Source: Candidatus Peregrinibacteria bacterium Gr01-1014_25
GTDB lineage: Bacteria > Patescibacteriota > Gracilibacteria > Peribacterales > Peribacteraceae
DNA: 64,000 bases
Assembly (NCBI GenBank): GCA_007376205.1
Contig: VMFU01000003.1
Coordinates: 62,001-126,000 of the forward strand
Reading direction: 5' to 3'
In this document: positions 3,718-13,283 of the stretch, piece after piece
How positions within the stretch are numbered: the stretch's first letter is position 1
Layout: each line of letters opens with the position of its first letter
Made by a program: the position numbers and the translations under genes
Notes under the pieces: model-generated
Database searches by the model: none
Told to the model about the DNA's origin: nothing
The model's input: the letters and a program-made list of their open reading frames with translations, nothing else

Positions 3718-6042
3718 ATGCCGCAAACGCGCACCACCCTCTCCATCGACGGCATGCACTGCGCGAGTTGCGCGGCCATCATCACGCGCAAGCTTGCGAA
3801 AACGCCCGGCGTCGCGGAAGCCAACGTGAACTACGCCGCGGCAAAGGGACATATCCTTTTCGATCCCGCGCAGGCGAGCGTCGACAATCTCATCGAGGCG
3901 GTCCGCAAAGCGGGCTATGACGCGCATGTCGCAAGCGAAGCAGATCGAGAAGGAGAGAAGGCACGGCGCGAGGCGGAGATCCTCCGCTACCGCGGCAAGT
4001 TTTTCTGGGGGCTGCTCTTGAGCGCTCCGATGGTGTATTTCATGGCAGGGTCGTTCTTCCCGTCATTGCCCTTCGTCGCGGCACTCGCCCCGTGGATGGG
4101 CATCGCGTCGCTTCTCCTCGCAACGCCCGTCCAATTCTGGCTGGGCGGAGGATTCTACCATAGCGCGTGGTCCGCCCTGCGCATGGGGACATTCAATATG
4201 GACAGCCTCATCGCCATCGGCACCTCGACCGCGTACGTCTACAGCCTCTTCAATGTCGCCGATCACCTGCGCACCGAAGGGACCGTCATCGGGAAAATGC
4301 ACGAGCTCTATTTCGAGGTGGCGGCTCTCCTCATCACGTTCGTCCTGCTTGGGAAGTGGCTGGAGGCGAGGGCGAAGGGAGCGACGTCCGCGGCGATGCA
4401 GAAACTCATGGGACTGCAGGCCAAGACCGCGCGCGTGGAACGCGAGGGACAGACCATCGACATCGCCATCGAGGATGTGCGCATCGGCGACACCGTCGTT
4501 GTGAGGCCTGGTGAAAAGATTCCCGTCGACGGAACCGTGATCCGCGGCCTCTCCTCCGTCGATGAATCGATGCTGACCGGCGAGAGCATCCCCGTGGAGA
4601 AGAAGGAGGGGGACAAGGTCTTCGGCGCGACGATGAACGGGAACGGCAGCCTCACCTTCCGCGCCGAGAAGATCGGCAAGGACACCGTTCTCGCCCAGAT
4701 CATCCGTTTCGTGGAAGAAGCACAGGGCAGCAAGGCGCCGATCCAGGACTTCGCGGACTGGGTGTCGTCATGGTTCGTGCCGGCTGTGCTCGCGGCCGCC
4801 GTCATCACACTCGCGGTGTGGTTAGTTCTCGGCGCGACGCCGACATTCGCGCTCCTCGCGTTCGTCTCCGTGGTCGTCATCGCCTGCCCGTGCGCGCTGG
4901 GGCTGGCGACGCCGACGGCGATCATGGTCGCCACCGGCAAGGGTGCGGAGCTCGGTATTCTGATCCGCGGCGGCGAGCCGCTAGAGGCAGCGAAGCATAT
5001 CGATGCCGTCGTGTTCGATAAGACGGGAACGTTGAGCAAGGGGAAGCCCGAAGTGACGGACGTCATCGTGCTCACTGGCGGAACGCAGGAGGAAATCCTC
5101 CGCATCGCCGCGTCCCTCGAGCAGGGTTCCGAGCACCCGCTCGCGGAGAGCATCGTCGCTCATGCCAAAGCAAAGGGCACCGCTTTGAGCGCTGCCGAGG
5201 GGTTCGCGGCGATCCCCGGCCACGGGGTTGAGGGGAGCGTCGGCGGCGAGCGCTACTACCTCGGAAACCGAAAGCTCATGGCCAAGATCGCCATCCCCAT
5301 GCTGGACGCCGAAGAGCGGATGCACAGGCTCGAGGACGACGGCAAGACCGCCATGCTCCTTGCGGACTCCAACCGCATCCTTGGAATCATCGCCGTCGCC
5401 GACACGCTCAAGGAAACGTCCGCTCAAGCCGTTGAGCAGCTGAAGAAAATGCACATCGACGTGTGGATGATCACCGGTGACAACGCGCGCACGGCCCGGG
5501 CTCTCGCGAAGCAAGCAGGCATCACCAACGTGCTCGCGGAAGTCCTGCCGGAGGACAAGGCAAACGAGGTGAAAAAACTGCAGGCCGCGGGCAGGCGCGT
5601 GGCCATGGTCGGCGACGGCATCAACGACAGCCCCGCCCTGGCGCAGGCCGACTTGGGCATCGCCATGGGCAGCGGAACGGACACCGCCATGGAAACGGGC
5701 GGCATCGTCCTGGTGAAGAGCGACCTGCGCGACGTCGCGACGGCCATCACGCTAAGCCGCGCCGCCGTCGGTAAGATCAAGCAGAACATGTTCTTCGCGC
5801 TTTTCTTCAATGTCATCGGTATTCCCATCGCCGCTCGGGCCTTCGCGTTCGCCGGACTCGTGCTGCGGCCCGAGCTCGCCGGCCTTGCGATGGCCTTCAG
5901 TTCCGTGTCGGTCGTCACGAACTCGCTGCTCCTCAAGGGCTTCCATCCGTCCAGGCGCAACTGGGCATCGGACATCGCTCCTGTCATCATGACCGTCGGC
6001 TTCACGGTCCTGTTCTTCCTCTTCGCACGCATCAGCACATGA
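3718..6042 (+). CDS. copA: Cu(I)-exporting P1B-type ATPase
   Basis: 774 residues, a usual length for CopA with one N-terminal metal domain. In order: HMA domain with GMHCASC (Cys 15 and 18), membrane helices, actuator loop with TGES (287-290), the ion-site CPC (390-392), the phosphorylated aspartate in DKTGT (D434), and the hinge GDGINDSP (from G632). It pumps Cu(I) out of the cytoplasm at the cost of ATP. The start codon follows the chaperone's stop by one base, and the stop overlaps the oxidase gene as ATGA, so these genes form one operon. Confidence 0.97.
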
Positions 6043-7610
6043 TCACCGCTCGCTCTCTCATCGCGCTATCCTGTCTTCTTCTCGTCTCCTGCTCCACAAG
6101 GACGGGCATGCATGGCGGCACGATGAATGACGCTCAATCGCCGCAACAAAGCATTGCTGCGGATCTCTCCGCGCTGTCCGAAGCACAGGCAACGCAAATC
6201 GTCGACGTAGACAACGGAGCAACGATCGACCTCAACCCGCAGATCGTGAAGAAATCGTTGGATGGCAAGCCGTTTGCGCTCTATGCCTACAACGGTCAAT
6301 TCCCCGGGCCTCTCCTGAAAGTAAAGCAGGGTTCGACCTTCACCGTGCGCGTACGCAACGACATCGACCAGCCGACGACCGTGCACTGGCACGGCGTGCG
6401 CCTGCAGAACAAGTTCGACGGCGCGGCGGGTATCACCCAAAAGCCCATCGAACCCGGCGGGAGCTTCACCTACACGGTGACGGTGCCGGACAGCGGCATG
6501 TTCTGGTACCACCCGCACGTCCGCGAGGACATGCAGCAGGACATGGGGCTCTACGGCAATCTCTGGGTCACGCCGAGGGACGCTGCTCCCACACCCGTCA
6601 ATCGCGAGGAGGCATTGATGCTTGACGATCTGCTCATGCGCAGAGGTCTGCCCGTGCCCTACGGCGAGACGGAGGCCGATTTCGCGCTCATGGGGCGCTT
6701 CGGGAACACGATGCTCGTCAACGGCTCTGCCGCCTACGCCTTAAACGTGAGGCGCGGTGACGTCGTGCGCTTTTCTCTGACGAATGCGGCGAACACGCGC
6801 ACGTTCAATATTCACTTCGGCGGCGCGCGCATGAAACTCATCGGTAGCGATGCGGGAAGGAGCGAACGGGAGGAGTTCGTCGATGCCGTCCGGCTCTCGC
6901 CCTCCGAGCGCGCGACGGTGGACGTCCTCTTCGACAAATCCGGAACGTACAAGTTCGTCCACGAAAGTCCCGAGACCAGGATCACACTGGGGTCCGTCAC
7001 CGTGAGTGATGAAGCGGCTTCGCCGAGTTACGCCTCTGCGTTCGATGAGGAGAGCCGAAACACAGACGTCGTCGCGGACATCGACGCGTACCGTGCGTTC
7101 TTCGATGCGCCGGTTGACGAGATGATCCACCTCACCGTCAAGCAGGACATGATGGGGGGCATGGGACATGGCGGTATGGCGATGGATCACGGCGTCGGCG
7201 AGGACGGCATCGAGTGGGAGGATTCCATGCCGATGATGAACGCGATGGCGACGAAGGCGAACACGCAGTGGAAGCTGGTCGATGAACGGTCGGGAAAGGA
7301 GAACATGGATATCCGCTACGCGTTTACGAGAGGGGACAAGGTGAAGATCCGGCTGGTGAACGATCGCGCCGAGGACGGGTCCGACCATCCGATGCAGCAC
7401 CCGATCCACTTCCACGGACAGCGGTTCCTCGTCCTCGCCTTCAATGGAAAGCGCAACGAGAACCTCGTCTGGAAGGACACGGTGCTCGTTCCCAAGGACG
7501 CGACCGTCGACATCCTCCTCGACGTCACGAATCCCGGTGATTGGATGATCCACTGCCACATCGCGGAGCACTTGAGTAACGGAATGATGGGGTCGATGCG
7601 CGTGAAGTAG
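6039..7610 (+). CDS. multicopper oxidase, lipoprotein (CueO/CopA-like)
   Basis: 523 residues. A lipobox (LLLVSC, Cys 18) follows the signal helix, so it is probably tethered outside the cytoplasmic membrane. All four copper-site motifs are present: HWHG (H116, H118), WYHPH (H158, H160), HPIHFHG (H454, H457, H459) and [12 protein letters not shown] (H505 to M516, with Met as the type-1 axial ligand). A Met/His-rich insert (about 369-405) resembles the cuprous-oxidase loop of CueO/PcoA. The likely role is oxidation of Cu(I) to Cu(II) in the cell envelope. It is translationally coupled to copA. Confidence 0.95.
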
Positions 7611-7659
7611 CGAGTGATCGCGTTGCTAAAGCTGCATCGTTGCACATACAGTACGGCTC

Positions 7660-8436
7660 GTGCCCGTGACCTTCTTCATATTCGGCAGCGTCCTCCTCGT
7701 CAGCGCCGTTTCGCTGACCGGGGTATTCCTCCTCTCGCTGCGGCACGAGATGCTGCAGAGAATTCTCCTCAATCTCGTCAGCTTTTCAACGGGTGCGCTC
7801 CTAGGGAACACCTTCATCCACCTGCTGCCCGAAGTCATTGAGCACAGCGATCCGTCGCAGGGGATGCTCCTTGTCCTCGCAGGAATCGTTGTTTCTTTCG
7901 TGATCGAGAAAGTTATCCACTGGCGTCATTGCCACACCACGGACTGTCATGACCACACGCGTCCGGTCGGCACGCTCGTGCTGGTGGGCGACGCCGCCCA
8001 CAACATTTTGGATGGCATCCTCATTGCGGCGACGTACTTGGTCAGCATTCCTCTCGGCATCGCGGCGACGATCGCGGTGATCCTGCACGAAGTGCCGCAG
8101 GAAATCGGCGACTTCGCGATCATGCTGCACAGCGGCTTTTCGCGCGCCAGGGCGCTGCTGATGAATTTTCTGACTGCGCTGACGGCGCTCATAGGCGCGG
8201 GACTCGTCCTGCTCCTCGCGGGGAAAGTGGAGGGGTTGGAATCAATCCTCCTGCCGATCACCGCCGGGAACTTCCTCTACATCGCCGGCGCCGACCTGCT
8301 TCCAGAGCTGCACCGCGAAACGCGCATCGCCAAAACCATCCAGCAACTCGTCCTCCTACTCGCGGGCATCGCGCTGATGTACGCACTCTCCGTCGTCGCC
8401 GAGCCGCACACAGCGGAGGCAACGCTAGTTCCTTGA
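7660..8436 (+). CDS. ZIP-family metal transporter
   Basis: 258 residues, GTG start (GTG at 7666 also possible). About eight membrane helices, with the ZIP signature HNILDGILIA in one helix and HEVPQEIGD in the next; these His/Asp/Glu residues form the metal channel. A His-rich loop (HWRHCHTTDCHDH) lies between early helices. ZIP proteins import Zn or other divalent metals, some being broad. At the end of a copper operon it may balance zinc, or move copper or iron; the substrate cannot be read from sequence. Confidence 0.9.
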   Translation: MPVTFFIFGSVLLVSAVSLTGVFLLSLRHEMLQRILLNLVSFSTGALLGNTFIHLLPEVIEHSDPSQGMLLVLAGIVVSFVIEKVIHWRHCHTTDCHDHTRPVGTLVLVGDAAHNILDGILIAATYLVSIPLGIAATIAVILHEVPQEIGDFAIMLHSGFSRARALLMNFLTALTALIGAGLVLLLAGKVEGLESILLPITAGNFLYIAGADLLPELHRETRIAKTIQQLVLLLAGIALMYALSVVAEPHTAEATLVP

Positions 8437-8748: not shown

Positions 8749-8862
8749 AGCGTTCGAGAAACTACCCAGATTCACGGGTAAGTCAAGCACTGGCGTTGTT
8801 TTCCGTAATTGCTTGTTTCCGTTCCGTCATCTGCTACCATCTGCGGGCTTCGTCAAAAGCAG

Positions 8863-9174
8863 ATGTTCGCCGTTGTCGACATGGTCGGCTTTCAGGAGAT
8901 CGCCCGTGAGGGCGAAAAGCTCCACATTCCGCACCTCTCCGCAAAGGAGGGGGCAACGGTCGTGTTCGACAAGGTGTACCTCATCGCCAAGGACGAAACG
9001 GTCCGGGTCGGCGATCCGCTCATTGTGGGCGCGGCCGTCGAGGTGACGGTCCTGGGCCACGGCAAGGATGACAAGGTCCGCACGGTGAAATTCCGCCGAC
9101 GCAAGCGGCGCCTGAAAATGCAGGGGCACCGCCAGCAGTACACGGAGGTGGAGGTAAAGAAAATCAGGGCGTGA
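8863..9174 (+). CDS. rplU: 50S ribosomal protein L21
   Basis: 103 residues, the usual length. It starts MFAVVDMVGFQEIAREGEK, matching the L21 opening strand (YAVI..GGKQ..V.EG), and has the KDDKVRTVKFRRRKRRLKMQGHRQ stretch (shown in parts: KVRTVKFRRRK, then GHRQQYTEV) that binds 23S rRNA. The longer ORF from 8809 is rejected because the family begins at this Met. A TACCAT box lies 22 bases upstream. The usual partner rpmA (L27) is not adjacent. Confidence 0.93.
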   Translation: MFAVVDMVGFQEIAREGEKLHIPHLSAKEGATVVFDKVYLIAKDETVRVGDPLIVGAAVEVTVLGHGKDDKVRTVKFRRRKRRLKMQGHRQQYTEVEVKKIRA

Positions 9175-10231
9175 GCTGTTCTCGCAATGTCCTCATCATC
9201 TCTAACGTCACCCCCAAGTTCTGGAGGCACGCGAGGGTTTCGCCGTAGCGCTCGTCGGCGCGCAGGAGGTAGTTCAGGTAGCTCCTTGCGTGCGTGCGAC
9301 TAGACGGCACGGGGGAATCGGGATCAATGGGGGAGTGGTCGCGCATGTACGGATTGCTCGTGATGCGGATACGCTCACCCGAGGAGAGGTAGATCGTACC
9401 GTGGCGCGCCTCGCGCATGGGTAGCACACAATCGAACATATCAACGCCGCGTTTGACGGCCTGCCGCATCTGCTCCAGCCTGCCGACGCCCATCAGGTAG
9501 CGCGGCTTCTGCGCCGGGAGCAGAGGGCAGACGACGTCGAGAATGTCCATCATCTCCGCCTCGGTCTCGCCCACGGCGAGTCCACCGATCGCGTAGCCGT
9601 CGAAATCCATGGCGACGAGTTCCTGAACGCAGCGTTCGCGCAGATCCCGCTCCAAGCCGCCTTGGACGATGGCGAAGAGGGACGGCGGCGACGGGGATGT
9701 TGCTTTCAGTTCGTCATGGACTTCCTTGCATCGCTTCGCCCAGCGGAGGGTGCGCTCGACGGCCGCGATTTGGACTTCCCTCGGCGCCGTCGACGGCGGG
9801 CATTCGTCGAAGCAGAGGATGATGTCCGCGCCGAGCGTGTGCTGAATGCGGATCGATTCCTCCGGCCCGAGGAAGAGCGCAGTACCGTCGAGGTGCGACT
9901 GGAAATGCACGCCCGCGTCGGTCACGTCCCGCAGGTCCGTGAGCGAAAACACTTGAAAACCGCCCGAATCCGTGATGATCGGCTTGCGCCACCCCGTGAA
10001 GGCGTGCAGACCTCCGGCGTCTCGCACGACCGTCTCGCCGGGACGGATGTGCAGGTGATAGGTATTGCAGAGCAGGATGTCCGCGCCGAGGGATTCCAAG
10101 TCCTCCAGTGTGATCCCGCGCATCGCTCCGCCGGTGCCGACGGGCATGAAGCACGGCGTTGGAATGTCGCCGTGAGCGGTGCGGATGATTCCGCGCCGGC
10201 CAAGAGGGGAGGATGCGAGGAGGGAGAACAT
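9164..10231 (-). CDS. tgt: tRNA-guanine transglycosylase lacking the zinc site
   Basis: 355 residues. It exchanges G34 for a 7-deazaguanine base in tRNAs with GUN anticodons. Catalytic motifs are present: TDSGGFQVFSL, GGLAVGE and the nucleophile region GVDMFDCVLPMREARHG. In the C-terminal zinc site, where the family has CxCxxC and a His about 25 residues on, this protein reads DPDSPVPSSRTHARSYL and CLQNLG, so all four ligands are replaced (Ser, Val, Ser and Gln by my alignment). A TATCGT box (10240-10245, reverse) ends 8 bases from the start. It overlaps the 3' end of rplU by 11 bases, convergent. Confidence 0.93.
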   Translation of the reverse strand: MFSLLASSPLGRRGIIRTAHGDIPTPCFMPVGTGGAMRGITLEDLESLGADILLCNTYHLHIRPGETVVRDAGGLHAFTGWRKPIITDSGGFQVFSLTDLRDVTDAGVHFQSHLDGTALFLGPEESIRIQHTLGADIILCFDECPPSTAPREVQIAAVERTLRWAKRCKEVHDELKATSPSPPSLFAIVQGGLERDLRERCVQELVAMDFDGYAIGGLAVGETEAEMMDILDVVCPLLPAQKPRYLMGVGRLEQMRQAVKRGVDMFDCVLPMREARHGTIYLSSGERIRITSNPYMRDHSPIDPDSPVPSSRTHARSYLNYLLRADERYGETLACLQNLGVTLEMMRTLREQLTP

Positions 10232-10284
10232 GCGACGAGACGATACCTTGTATCCCGCATCTTGTATCTTGTATCGTCGTGGCC

Positions 10285-10692
10285 ATGCTTCTCAAACTCC
10301 CCCAGGAACCCTCGCAGATCGCTACGACGATCGTGCGCATTTCGTTCGGCGTTTCGCTGATGTTCGTCGCGCTCGCGCATTTCAGCGATCTGCAGTCCTT
10401 CTCCCTCGTCGTGAGCGACGGATTGGAATTCCTCGGACCCCTGCCGCGACTGTGGGCCTATATCCAGCCGAGCCTCATGCTCTTCGGCGGCGCCCTGCTC
10501 GCCATCAACCGCTTTCCGATTCTCGCGACGTGGTGCGCGGGCGTCGCGCTCGCCGTCATTCCCGTGGGCATGCTCTCGAAAACCATCTTCGGTCTGGACT
10601 TGGCCGACATGATGGCATCGGCGATCAACGCGTGGATCTGGCTGCTCATCTTCCTGGCGATCGTGAAGATGACAGCGCCGGCGAAGAGCTAA
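10285..10692 (+). CDS. small membrane protein, DoxX-like
   Basis: 135 residues from the ATG at 10285 (MLLKLPQEPSQ). Four hydrophobic segments alternate with short loops, and FGVSLMFVALAHFSD plus a PSLMLFGGALL helix resemble the DoxX/SURF4 fold; the assignment is weak. It diverges from tgt: TATCGT boxes on both strands lie in a short region of TTGTATC repeats (10247-10277). Confidence 0.65.
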   Translation: MLLKLPQEPSQIATTIVRISFGVSLMFVALAHFSDLQSFSLVVSDGLEFLGPLPRLWAYIQPSLMLFGGALLAINRFPILATWCAGVALAVIPVGMLSKTIFGLDLADMMASAINAWIWLLIFLAIVKMTAPAKS

Positions 10693-10695
10693 ACG

Positions 10696-11361
10696 TCACT
10701 TCGCCTTCTTCTCCGTGCCGTCGTGCTTGAGCACGATCCGGTCGATGAGACCGTAGTCGAGCGCCTCCTTCGCGGTCATGAACTTGTCGCGCTCGGTGTC
10801 GTTGATGACCTTGTCCAGCGGCTTGCCCGTGTGCTTCGCGATGAGCTGGTTGAGCAACTGCTTCGTTTTGATGATGTGATCCGCGTGGATGGCGATATCC
10901 GTCGCTTGACCCTCCGTTCCACCGAGCGGTTGGTGAATCATGATCTCGGCGTGTTCGAGCGCGAACCGCTTACCCTTGGCGCCCCCCATCAGGATGATCG
11001 CCCCACCGCTCGCCGCCATGCCGAGACACACCGTCGAGATGTCGGGCTGCACATACTGCATCGTGTCGTACATCGCGAGCGTGGAACTGACCTGCCCGCC
11101 CGGCGAATTCACGTAGAGCGTGATGTCCTGCTTGGCGTCTTCTTTCTCCAGGAAGAGGAGTTGCGCGATGATGGAATTCGCGATGTCGTCGTTGATCGGC
11201 GTTCCGAGGAACACGATCCGTTCTTCGAGCAGACGGGAGTAGATGTCGTAGACGCGCTCGCCGAATTGCGTCTTTTCGATGACCGTCGGAATCAGCGTGC
11301 TGTGCGGCGTCAGCCGTCCGAGGGAGATCTGCTTGGCGACGGACTGGATGGTGGGATGCAT
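10696..11361 (-). CDS. clpP: ATP-dependent Clp protease proteolytic subunit
   Basis: 221 residues. Canonical ClpP: S118 in [10 protein letters not shown]143 in MIHQPLGG and D192 in [12 protein letters not shown] form the triad; [19 protein letters not shown] is the oxyanion strand. The N-terminal [15 protein letters not shown] contacts the ATPase. It degrades proteins unfolded by ClpX or ClpC, neither of which is in the window. The nucleophile context is AASGG rather than the commoner AASMG. A copy of the dispersed TCCGATTCCC repeat lies directly upstream of its start (11365-11397). Confidence 0.97.
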
Positions 11362-11501: not shown

Positions 11502-12452
11502 ATGACGGTGGAATCCTGGCAACGGCTCGTCGAGCGGCACCTTGTGTCCTCACGCAATCCGCTCATCGTGATCCTAGGGCCAACCGCGAGCGGGAAGACC
11601 GCCTTCTCATTGCGGGTTTGCGAACAGATACGGAACGGCAGCCACGGATGGTGCGGTGCGGAGGTGGTGAACGCCGATTCACGCCAGCTCTTCCGCCACC
11701 TCGATATCGGCACGGCGAAAATTGCCGCATCCGAGATGCAGGGCATCCCCCACCATCTCATCGACGTCCGCGATCCGCGCGAGCCAGTATCGGTCGGCTG
11801 GTACCAGGAGCAGGCGACTGCGGCCATTGACGATATCCTTAAGCGCCAGAGCGTCCCCGTGCTCGTCGGCGGTTCCATGCTGTACATCAGCGCGATCGTT
11901 GACGGCCTCAAGCCCCTGCCGCCCGCCGATCCCGCTCTGCGAAAGCGCTTGAGCGGGGAATATGACCGCGACGGCGGCGCTTCACTTCTACGGCGGCTCG
12001 CCTCACTCGATCCCGAATCGGCCCGCGCGATCGACCAGCGCAACAAGGTGTACCTCGTTCGCGCGATGGAGCTGTGCGAATCCGCTGGTATGCCGGCTTC
12101 CCGCCAGAAAGTGACTGCACAAGCACCGTACGACTTGTTGATGCTTGGCATGGATTGGCCGCGTGCAGAGCTGCATCACAGGATCAACGAACGGACGCAC
12201 CAGCTCTTTGCTGCGGGATGGGTGGAAGAAGTCGAAGGATTGCTGCGCAGGGGATACGGCGCGGACGATCCGGGCATGATCAGTCATGGGTACCGGGAGA
12301 TAGCGAATGCGATGGTGGATGGTAGATGGCAGATGACGGCAGAAGACGCCAATGCACTGGCCTCCGCTGTCGCGGCAAAAACTCGACAGTACGCCAAGCG
12401 GCAGATGACGTGGTGGAGGAACGATGCGAGAATCTCTTGGGTCAAAGGATAA
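11502..12452 (+). CDS. miaA: tRNA dimethylallyltransferase
   Basis: 316 residues, typical. It transfers a dimethylallyl group to A37 of tRNAs reading UNN codons. Visible: P-loop GPTASGKTAF, the NADSRQLFRHLDIGTAK substrate region, HHLIDVRDP, VGGSMLYISAIVDGL and YAKRQMTWWRND near the C-terminus. The segment NAMVDGRWQMTAED (about 269-282) is encoded by a 15-mer that recurs exactly at 59789-59803, so a short repeat may have entered the gene in frame. It faces clpP across a shared 140-base promoter region. Confidence 0.96.
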   Translation: MTVESWQRLVERHLVSSRNPLIVILGPTASGKTAFSLRVCEQIRNGSHGWCGAEVVNADSRQLFRHLDIGTAKIAASEMQGIPHHLIDVRDPREPVSVGWYQEQATAAIDDILKRQSVPVLVGGSMLYISAIVDGLKPLPPADPALRKRLSGEYDRDGGASLLRRLASLDPESARAIDQRNKVYLVRAMELCESAGMPASRQKVTAQAPYDLLMLGMDWPRAELHHRINERTHQLFAAGWVEEVEGLLRRGYGADDPGMISHGYREIANAMVDGRWQMTAEDANALASAVAAKTRQYAKRQMTWWRNDARISWVKG

Positions 12453-12893: not shown

Positions 12894-13283
12894 TTAGAAC
12901 TTGAAGACGTCGTAGCCGTTGGATTCGATGCGCTCTTTCATGTTCCAGAGCTGCTCGATCATGGTTTCCAGATGGGGGGAGGAATTCGGGGTCTTCGTGC
13001 TGCGGTAGAATTCTTCGATGAGGCGGAGCTGGTCCGCGAGGTTGATGAGAGCGAGGTTCGTCTTGTCCTTCCACTCCTGCGGTAATGCGTCGTATACGCT
13101 CGCGTTCAGAAGGCTTTCGGGCTTGGACGAGTCGATCTCCTTGCTGTCCAGAAGCTCCATGACACGCTTGAGAAAGGTTGCATGCTCGTCGCGCATCCCT
13201 CCAGCGATCGCCTGCCCGGCCTTGACCTGCTTGGCCTCGGAGAGGTCCTGATGCTGCGCGATGGACTGGGAGAACGTCGGCAT
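12894..13283 (-). CDS. hypothetical soluble helical protein
   Basis: 129 residues, no signal peptide or membrane segment. Charged helices (EHATFLKRVMELLDSKEID, LALINLADQLRLIEEFYRS) and a C-terminal NGYDVFKF tail. No family recognised. The clean reading frame among small co-oriented genes supports it being real. Confidence 0.6.
   Translation of the reverse strand: MPTFSQSIAQHQDLSEAKQVKAGQAIAGGMRDEHATFLKRVMELLDSKEIDSSKPESLLNASVYDALPQEWKDKTNLALINLADQLRLIEEFYRSTKTPNSSPHLETMIEQLWNMKERIESNGYDVFKF

Follow-up and report, generated by a model that had tools for sequence, protein, structure and literature searches.

In tRNA-guanine transglycosylase (Tgt), zinc ties the CxCxxC loop to a histidine on the following helix. 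The zinc domain has been called a hallmark of Tgt (PMC6165067), its zinc residues have been described as highly conserved (PMC4425180), and E. coli Tgt is stated to need zinc for activity, a statement for which the mutagenesis of Chong et al. 1995 is cited (PMC9508795). In the established queuosine pathway, the product of Tgt, preQ1-tRNA, is the substrate of QueA (PMC11130926). Within the open-access literature, which defined the scope of our search and excluded subscription papers and preprints, we found no paper on a zinc-less Tgt.

The window analyzed here is a stretch of 64,000 nucleotides from Candidatus Peregrinibacteria bacterium Gr01-1014_25. It contains a tgt gene (9164..10231, minus strand), recognized as an open reading frame with an ATG start and profile matches, that encodes a tRNA-guanine(34) transglycosylase of 355 amino acids without zinc ligands. 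The sequence-only reading of this DNA had reported, at the same coordinates, a Tgt with all four ligands replaced and with the catalytic motifs DSGGFQVF and DMFDC kept; both statements proved correct. In alignment to PDB entries 10fb and 1ozm, the ligands C, C, C, and H are replaced by S306, V308, S311, and Q337 (codons at 9314-9316, 9308-9310, 9299-9301, and 9221-9223, respectively). The former CxCxxC segment corresponds to residues 306-311 (S306-P-V308-P-S-S311; 9299..9316, minus strand), in which S306 is invariant across 58 of 58 members of the Peribacteria family described below, and the former position of the ligand histidine is occupied by Q337 (9221..9223, minus strand), which is also a glutamine in 58 of 58 members. 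The protein aligns end to end with Tgts of known structure, scoring 424 bits against the Pfam TGT model and 428.1 bits against NCBIfam TIGR00430, above the curated equivalog cut-off of 306.75. Matches to the archaeosine TgtA model (TIGR00432; 107.9 bits, cut-off 350) and to the DpdA model (28.1 bits, cut-off 200) are weak and fall below the respective cut-offs. Because the protein lacks the CxCxxC...H feature, and because the zinc site lies outside what the curated cut-off covers, we classify it as a zinc-site-less variant of Tgt.

Neither a Cys motif elsewhere in the protein nor a sequencing error accounts for the missing ligands, so their loss holds. Cysteines of the window Tgt are found at positions 27, 55, 140, 144, 168, 201, 235, 268, and 335. 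The last of these, the sole cysteine of the C-terminal subdomain, is a cysteine in 43 of 58 family members. We found no relocated Cys motif and no alternative Cys/His cluster in the protein that might take over the role, and its C-terminal subdomain has no CxxC-type motif. Sequencing error or a frameshift is ruled out because all 58 distinct sequences of the family, which come from many assemblies, show the same ligand-less state. A zinc-bearing second Tgt elsewhere in the genome is also ruled out: a search of this genome (1.12 Mb, 99.9% complete) revealed no second Tgt, and the gene is single-copy. A scan of the open reading frames of the window for further zinc motifs returned hits at chance level.

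We take the roles of the active-site, pocket, and tRNA-contact residues to be those of the Zymomonas enzyme, partly following PMC3660597 and PMC4425180. The catalytic aspartates are kept as D88 and D267 (Zymomonas D102 and D280). The segment from the nucleophile D267 to R273 and R276 (residues 267-276; 9404..9433, minus strand) has all three of these residues conserved, the two tRNA-contact arginines being unchanged. The base-pocket residues D142, C144, Q190, G217, and V220, each found in 58 of 58 family members, form a preQ1-type pocket as in bacterial Tgt (Zymomonas D156, C158, Q203, G230, and V233) and not a eukaryotic one; C158V and V233G are described as the exchanges of the eukaryotic enzyme (PMC3660597).

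Relatives of the window Tgt were collected by genome searches and from named records, the latter nearly all assigned to Candidatus Peribacteria or Peregrinibacteria. All four ligands are absent from all 58 distinct full-length Tgts of this family. The first ligand position is serine in all 58 sequences, the second is serine (47), alanine (9), or valine (2), the third is serine (52) or glycine (6), and the fourth is glutamine in all 58. P307 (55/58), R312 (54/58), R328 (58/58), and E331 (56/58) are near-fixed as well. R328 and E331, which are typical of the family and rare among zinc-bearing Tgts, lie in a segment (residues 328-331; 9239..9250, minus strand, as placed by codon position from the start of the open reading frame) that we propose as part of a putative replacement network. 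The ex-zinc subdomain and the barrel are conserved to the same degree, with mean pairwise identities of 0.64 and 0.66, respectively. The dN/dS values of the 25 closest family pairs, where computable, range from 0.03 to 0.23, and these sequence-based estimates show purifying selection on the family Tgt. As judged from the sequences, the ligand-less state is a fixed alternative, not decay. On the best explanation, the ancestor of the Peribacteria family lost the zinc tie in a single event.

Several family loci depart from the common gene structure. Two tgt genes are split between frames, one near residue 216 (L084/L137 in genome G002) and the other between residues 181 and 210 (L093/L148 in G031); they look frameshifted, as pseudogenes or assembly errors. 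An in-frame insertion of variable length is present near residue 177 in L138-L146 (genomes G012, G013, G015, G016, G022, G024, G038, G049, and G054), and the window Tgt has a Ser/Pro-rich stretch at this location. Finally, a record titled Kiritimatiellales (L047, JAIPIN010000006.1) contains a Peribacteria-type Tgt together with the neighbors MiaA and ClpP and is probably a mis-binned contig.

The AlphaFold2 model of the window Tgt has a mean pLDDT of 94.5, with about 97 in the C-terminal subdomain. It shows a TIM barrel with a C-terminal subdomain that is predicted to form the same helix-loop-helix as in Tgt (residues 309-352), and the Akkermansia-type Tgt, which lost the site independently, is predicted to have the same order of elements. 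The model matches Zymomonas Tgt (4dxx) with a Z score of 50.2 and 1.6 A over 351 residues, a match to which we give low weight because AlphaFold2, having been trained on zinc-bound Tgts, may favor or even impose the known fold. The earlier suggestion of a zinc-free fold variant therefore stands in part: the site is absent, the catalytic machinery is kept, and the predicted fold agrees with that of Zymomonas Tgt, whereas the absence of metal from the protein is something we infer. The aromatic hot spot of the dimer interface in Zymomonas Tgt is described as F92, W326, Y330, and H333 (PMC5395182), and the equivalents in the window Tgt are F78, H314, Y318, and Y321. Across the family, F78 is found in 56 of 58 sequences and Y318 in 57 of 58, position 321 is His (54) or Tyr (4), and the equivalent of W326 is His in 51. 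Such retention of the hot-spot aromatics would argue against a lost dimer interface, and the proposal of a changed partner surface is not borne out.

We consider it probable that the window encodes a true bacterial Tgt that is active and folds without zinc, with a polar network in place of the metal cross-link. The contact between loop and helix would be held by the fixed polar residues S306, Q337, S308/S311, R312, R328, and E331, which most likely act through hydrogen bonds and a salt bridge. Since the TIM barrel, the active site, the tRNA-contact arginines, and the dimer aromatics are unchanged, the same chemistry is expected, that is, replacement of G34 by preQ1 in tRNAs that carry a GUN anticodon. 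The zinc requirement stated for the E. coli enzyme counts against an active zinc-free Tgt.

The distribution of QueA bears on activity. The genome that contains the window encodes an intact QueA (C7:6228-7235, minus strand). In the family, QueA is present in 22 of 74 genomes and absent from the other 52. Among the 68 family genomes searched for both proteins, it was found in 22 and in none of the nine that lack Tgt (Fisher 0.026, a value that ignores kinship). In the Candidate Phyla Radiation (CPR), QueA is equally frequent beside zinc-less Tgts (16/31) and beside zinc-bearing ones (55/107), and 29 of the 31 Verrucomicrobiota genomes with a zinc-less Tgt encode it. No QueA match was found in G439, an apparent A. 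muciniphila genome, though its near relatives have one. Taken as sequence evidence, the co-occurrence with QueA points to the zinc-less Tgt being an active enzyme; the many family genomes that lack QueA, the missing match in G439, and the pathway gaps described next count against it.

Our profile searches for the queuosine pathway covered QueA, QueG, QueC, and PF02592, but not QueH, QueF, QueD, QueE, or QueT. In its own genome, the window Tgt is accompanied by QueA with no match to QueG (TIGR00276), QueC (PF06508), or the preQ0/preQ1 transporter family (PF02592), which amounts to a truncated queuosine pathway. The base is therefore probably imported, or made by genes beyond those searched, and the tRNA may end up with preQ1 or epoxyqueuosine as its final modification.

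The original observation is thus confirmed and turns out to be larger than first claimed: a Tgt that is intact in other respects has lost its zinc site recurrently. Of 283 distinct full-length Tgts, 120 lack the site, a proportion that is not a frequency because the Verrucomicrobiota sequences were enriched for loss, and in 85 of these 120 all four ligands are absent. The set was reduced from 323 to 283 by merging sequences identical over the compared part, and nine short or broken ones (L084, L085, L093, L094, L095, L137, L147, L148, and L149) were left out of the counts. Both catalytic aspartates are kept in all 120 zinc-less Tgts, as they are in all 58 of the family. On a quick LG+G4 tree, built after removal of the zinc-site alignment columns (650-730), the zinc-less Tgts fall into 19 clades with 19 changes, and 18, 17, 14, and 9 changes remain when branches with SH-aLRT below 50, 80, 90, and 95, respectively, are collapsed; such counts do not separate loss from gain, and we infer loss because the zinc form is found in E. 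coli, in eukaryotes, and in most lineages.

Within CPR, 176 genomes had a Tgt match, and the sequences of 138 were read, the other 38 being unlisted, fragmentary, or low-scoring. The zinc site is absent in 24 of 131 genomes outside the family and in 31 of 138 when the family is included. These further losses are scattered over roughly a dozen CPR lineages, many of which have relatives with the site intact; family f81, for instance, is mixed, with the site present in L169 and absent from L193 and L200. The zinc site is likewise missing from the Tgts of a Dictyoglomota record and of a MAG related to it. For comparison outside CPR we used Verrucomicrobiota, the phylum of the L070 genome, where Tgt was found in 137 of 144 genomes. 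The exact zinc motif is present in the Tgt of 96 of these 137 genomes (the pattern matched 97 genomes, but in G422 the match lies outside its tgt). All but one (G468) of the 41 motif-less genomes were fetched, and of these 40, 31 lacked the site and 9 had it. Thus, 31 of the 136 Verrucomicrobiota genomes examined have no zinc site, a count in which 96 genomes were scored as intact from the motif alone, at least seven of them with a second, unread Tgt. Two of the zinc-less Tgts appear to come from well-known organisms, namely Akkermansia muciniphila ATCC BAA-835 (G439, L330) and Opitutus terrae PB90-1 (G425, L325). The sequence-only reading had called the zinc site near-universal, a description that cannot be maintained given its absence from 24 of 131 non-family CPR genomes and from 31 of 136 Verrucomicrobiota genomes.

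Two Tgts each were observed in the Verrucomicrobiota genomes G371, G401, G411, G414, G424, G428, and G466. In these pairs, a frame of about 680-730 codons with the zinc motif occurs together with a shorter one that has no exact motif match; they are possibly C+/C- paralogues. The longer frame is similar to the Tgt-transporter fusions described in PMC11130926.

The neighbors of tgt that are conserved in the family are the genes for ribosomal protein bL21 (8809..9174, plus strand; 40 of 43 family loci), the ClpP protease subunit (10696..11361, minus strand; 39 of 43), and MiaA, the IPP transferase responsible for i6A37 (11502..12452, plus strand; 39 of 43). MiaA works on the same anticodon loops as Tgt. 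In 29 of 43 loci tgt lies beside the gene for a small membrane protein (10213-10692, plus strand) that matches MauE below the threshold, and a 129-aa protein without a Pfam match (12894-13283, minus strand) is encoded near it in 32 of 43. A copper exporter ATPase (CopA), a multicopper oxidase, and a ZIP-family transporter are encoded in a row at 3718-8436 on the plus strand. Of the 43 family loci, four have CopA within about 5 kb of tgt, two have the multicopper oxidase within this distance, and none has the ZIP transporter. The copper/zinc island is a local neighbor of tgt; these counts rule it out as a conserved partner and remove the ground for the earlier idea that metal was saved beside it.

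How might the protein manage without the canonical site, if not as a metal-free enzyme? One answer is that the metal site was rebuilt, with H299, H314, C335, and D303 of the same subdomain holding zinc or another metal. D303 is indeed invariant, and the other positions are often suitable (His at 299 in 52 of 58 sequences, His at 314 in 51, and Cys at 335 in 43); however, unlike S306 and Q337, no candidate sulfur or imidazole ligand is invariant, the subdomain has no CxxC-type motif, and His at the 314 position is also seen in 24 of 163 zinc-bearing Tgts, where it is a dimer-interface position. We find a rebuilt site improbable. Another answer is that the protein has degenerated into a non-catalytic pseudoenzyme like eukaryotic QTRT2, and the disappearance of a hallmark site, the absence of QueA from 52 of 74 family genomes, and the two apparently frameshifted loci (L137 of G002 with its twin L084, and L148 of G031 with its twin L093) would agree with this. 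Yet both catalytic aspartates persist in 58 of 58 family members and in 120 of 120 zinc-less Tgts, dN/dS is well below 1, QueA is always accompanied by Tgt in the family, and QTRT2 is described as the reverse case, in which the aspartates were lost and the zinc ligands kept (PMC6165067, PMC4425180). We rejected the pseudoenzyme on the low dN/dS and the aspartates kept in 120 of 120, and consider it very improbable.

Zinc economy, by which the site was lost through zinc scarcity in parallel to zinc-free ribosomal proteins, addresses why the site went and not how the enzyme works; it is therefore compatible with an active Tgt folded without zinc. On the one hand, Verrucomicrobiae, to which many of our zinc-less Tgts belong, are listed as having exclusively zinc-free (C-) versions of all eight zinc-type ribosomal proteins (PMC3087516, Table 2). 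On the other hand, alphaproteobacteria are nearly all C- in the same table, yet the Tgt of Zymomonas binds zinc, and most family loci do not have the copper/zinc island next to tgt. Genes for S4, L36, S14, L33, and L28 were sought in the window and the searched loci, and none was found (S18, L31, and L32 were outside the query). Zinc thrift is possible as a general cause of the loss, but we regard it as rather unlikely. The alternative is neutral replacement: if zinc is merely a structural cross-link, any lineage that first gains a stabilizing contact can lose it. The substitutes do differ by lineage (SSSQ, GPTQ, LNCH, VHSH, ADLI, and others), a variety that neutral replacement fits as well as zinc economy does, and one or two ligands are retained in 35 of the 62 zinc-less Tgts outside the family, as piecemeal loss predicts. 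That the losses cluster, in CPR and within two large clades of Verrucomicrobiota, speaks instead for lineage-specific causes, although sampling is uneven. Overall, neutral replacement seems to us quite possible, if a little short of probable. A wider proposal would be that Tgt, in CPR, a Dictyoglomota lineage, and Verrucomicrobiota (Akkermansia muciniphila among them), shed its zinc on at least nine and probably at least 14 occasions, always with a different metal-free lock and through zinc economy of the translation apparatus, so that queuosine insertion is zinc-independent widely in bacteria; we offer it tentatively, as somewhat unlikely in this full form.

If zinc-less Tgts work, zinc is a replaceable cross-link that the enzyme does not need for its function, and the link proposed between queuosine and the supply of zinc bypasses Tgt in these organisms. 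The zinc-less Tgts also offer nature's own designs for locking a well-studied enzyme without metal. Two of them apparently derive from type strains in culture, one of which is a common gut bacterium, and this makes the case open to direct test.

The window Tgt is a known enzyme in variant form; what makes it unusual is that the element it lost is regarded as required. With bacterial Tgt (TIGR00430; Zymomonas mobilis 1PUD/4DXX and E. coli 10fb) it shares the fold, the catalytic aspartates, the base pocket, the tRNA-contact arginines, and the dimer aromatics, and it differs from the Z. mobilis and E. coli enzymes in having S, V, S, and Q for the zinc ligands. Eukaryotic QTRT1 and QTRT2 belong to the same superfamily; both are described as keeping the zinc ligands, and QTRT2 as having lost the catalytic aspartates (PMC6165067, PMC4425180), which is the opposite of the window Tgt. 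Recurrent loss of zinc cysteines across phyla is also reported for other translation proteins, the C-/C+ ribosomal proteins such as S4; these often form paralogue pairs tied to zinc supply (PMC3087516), whereas Tgt is single-copy in its own genome. Another parallel is bacterial GluRS, likewise a tRNA enzyme with a zinc domain that is zinc-free in many bacteria: its zinc-free pZBD is reported to keep the fold via hydrogen bonds and cation-pi contacts, with function shown in a chimera (PMC4381286). The fold and the reaction of GluRS are unrelated to those of Tgt, and the GluRS case was established by experiment (PMC4381286), whereas the Tgt case comes from sequences and predictions.
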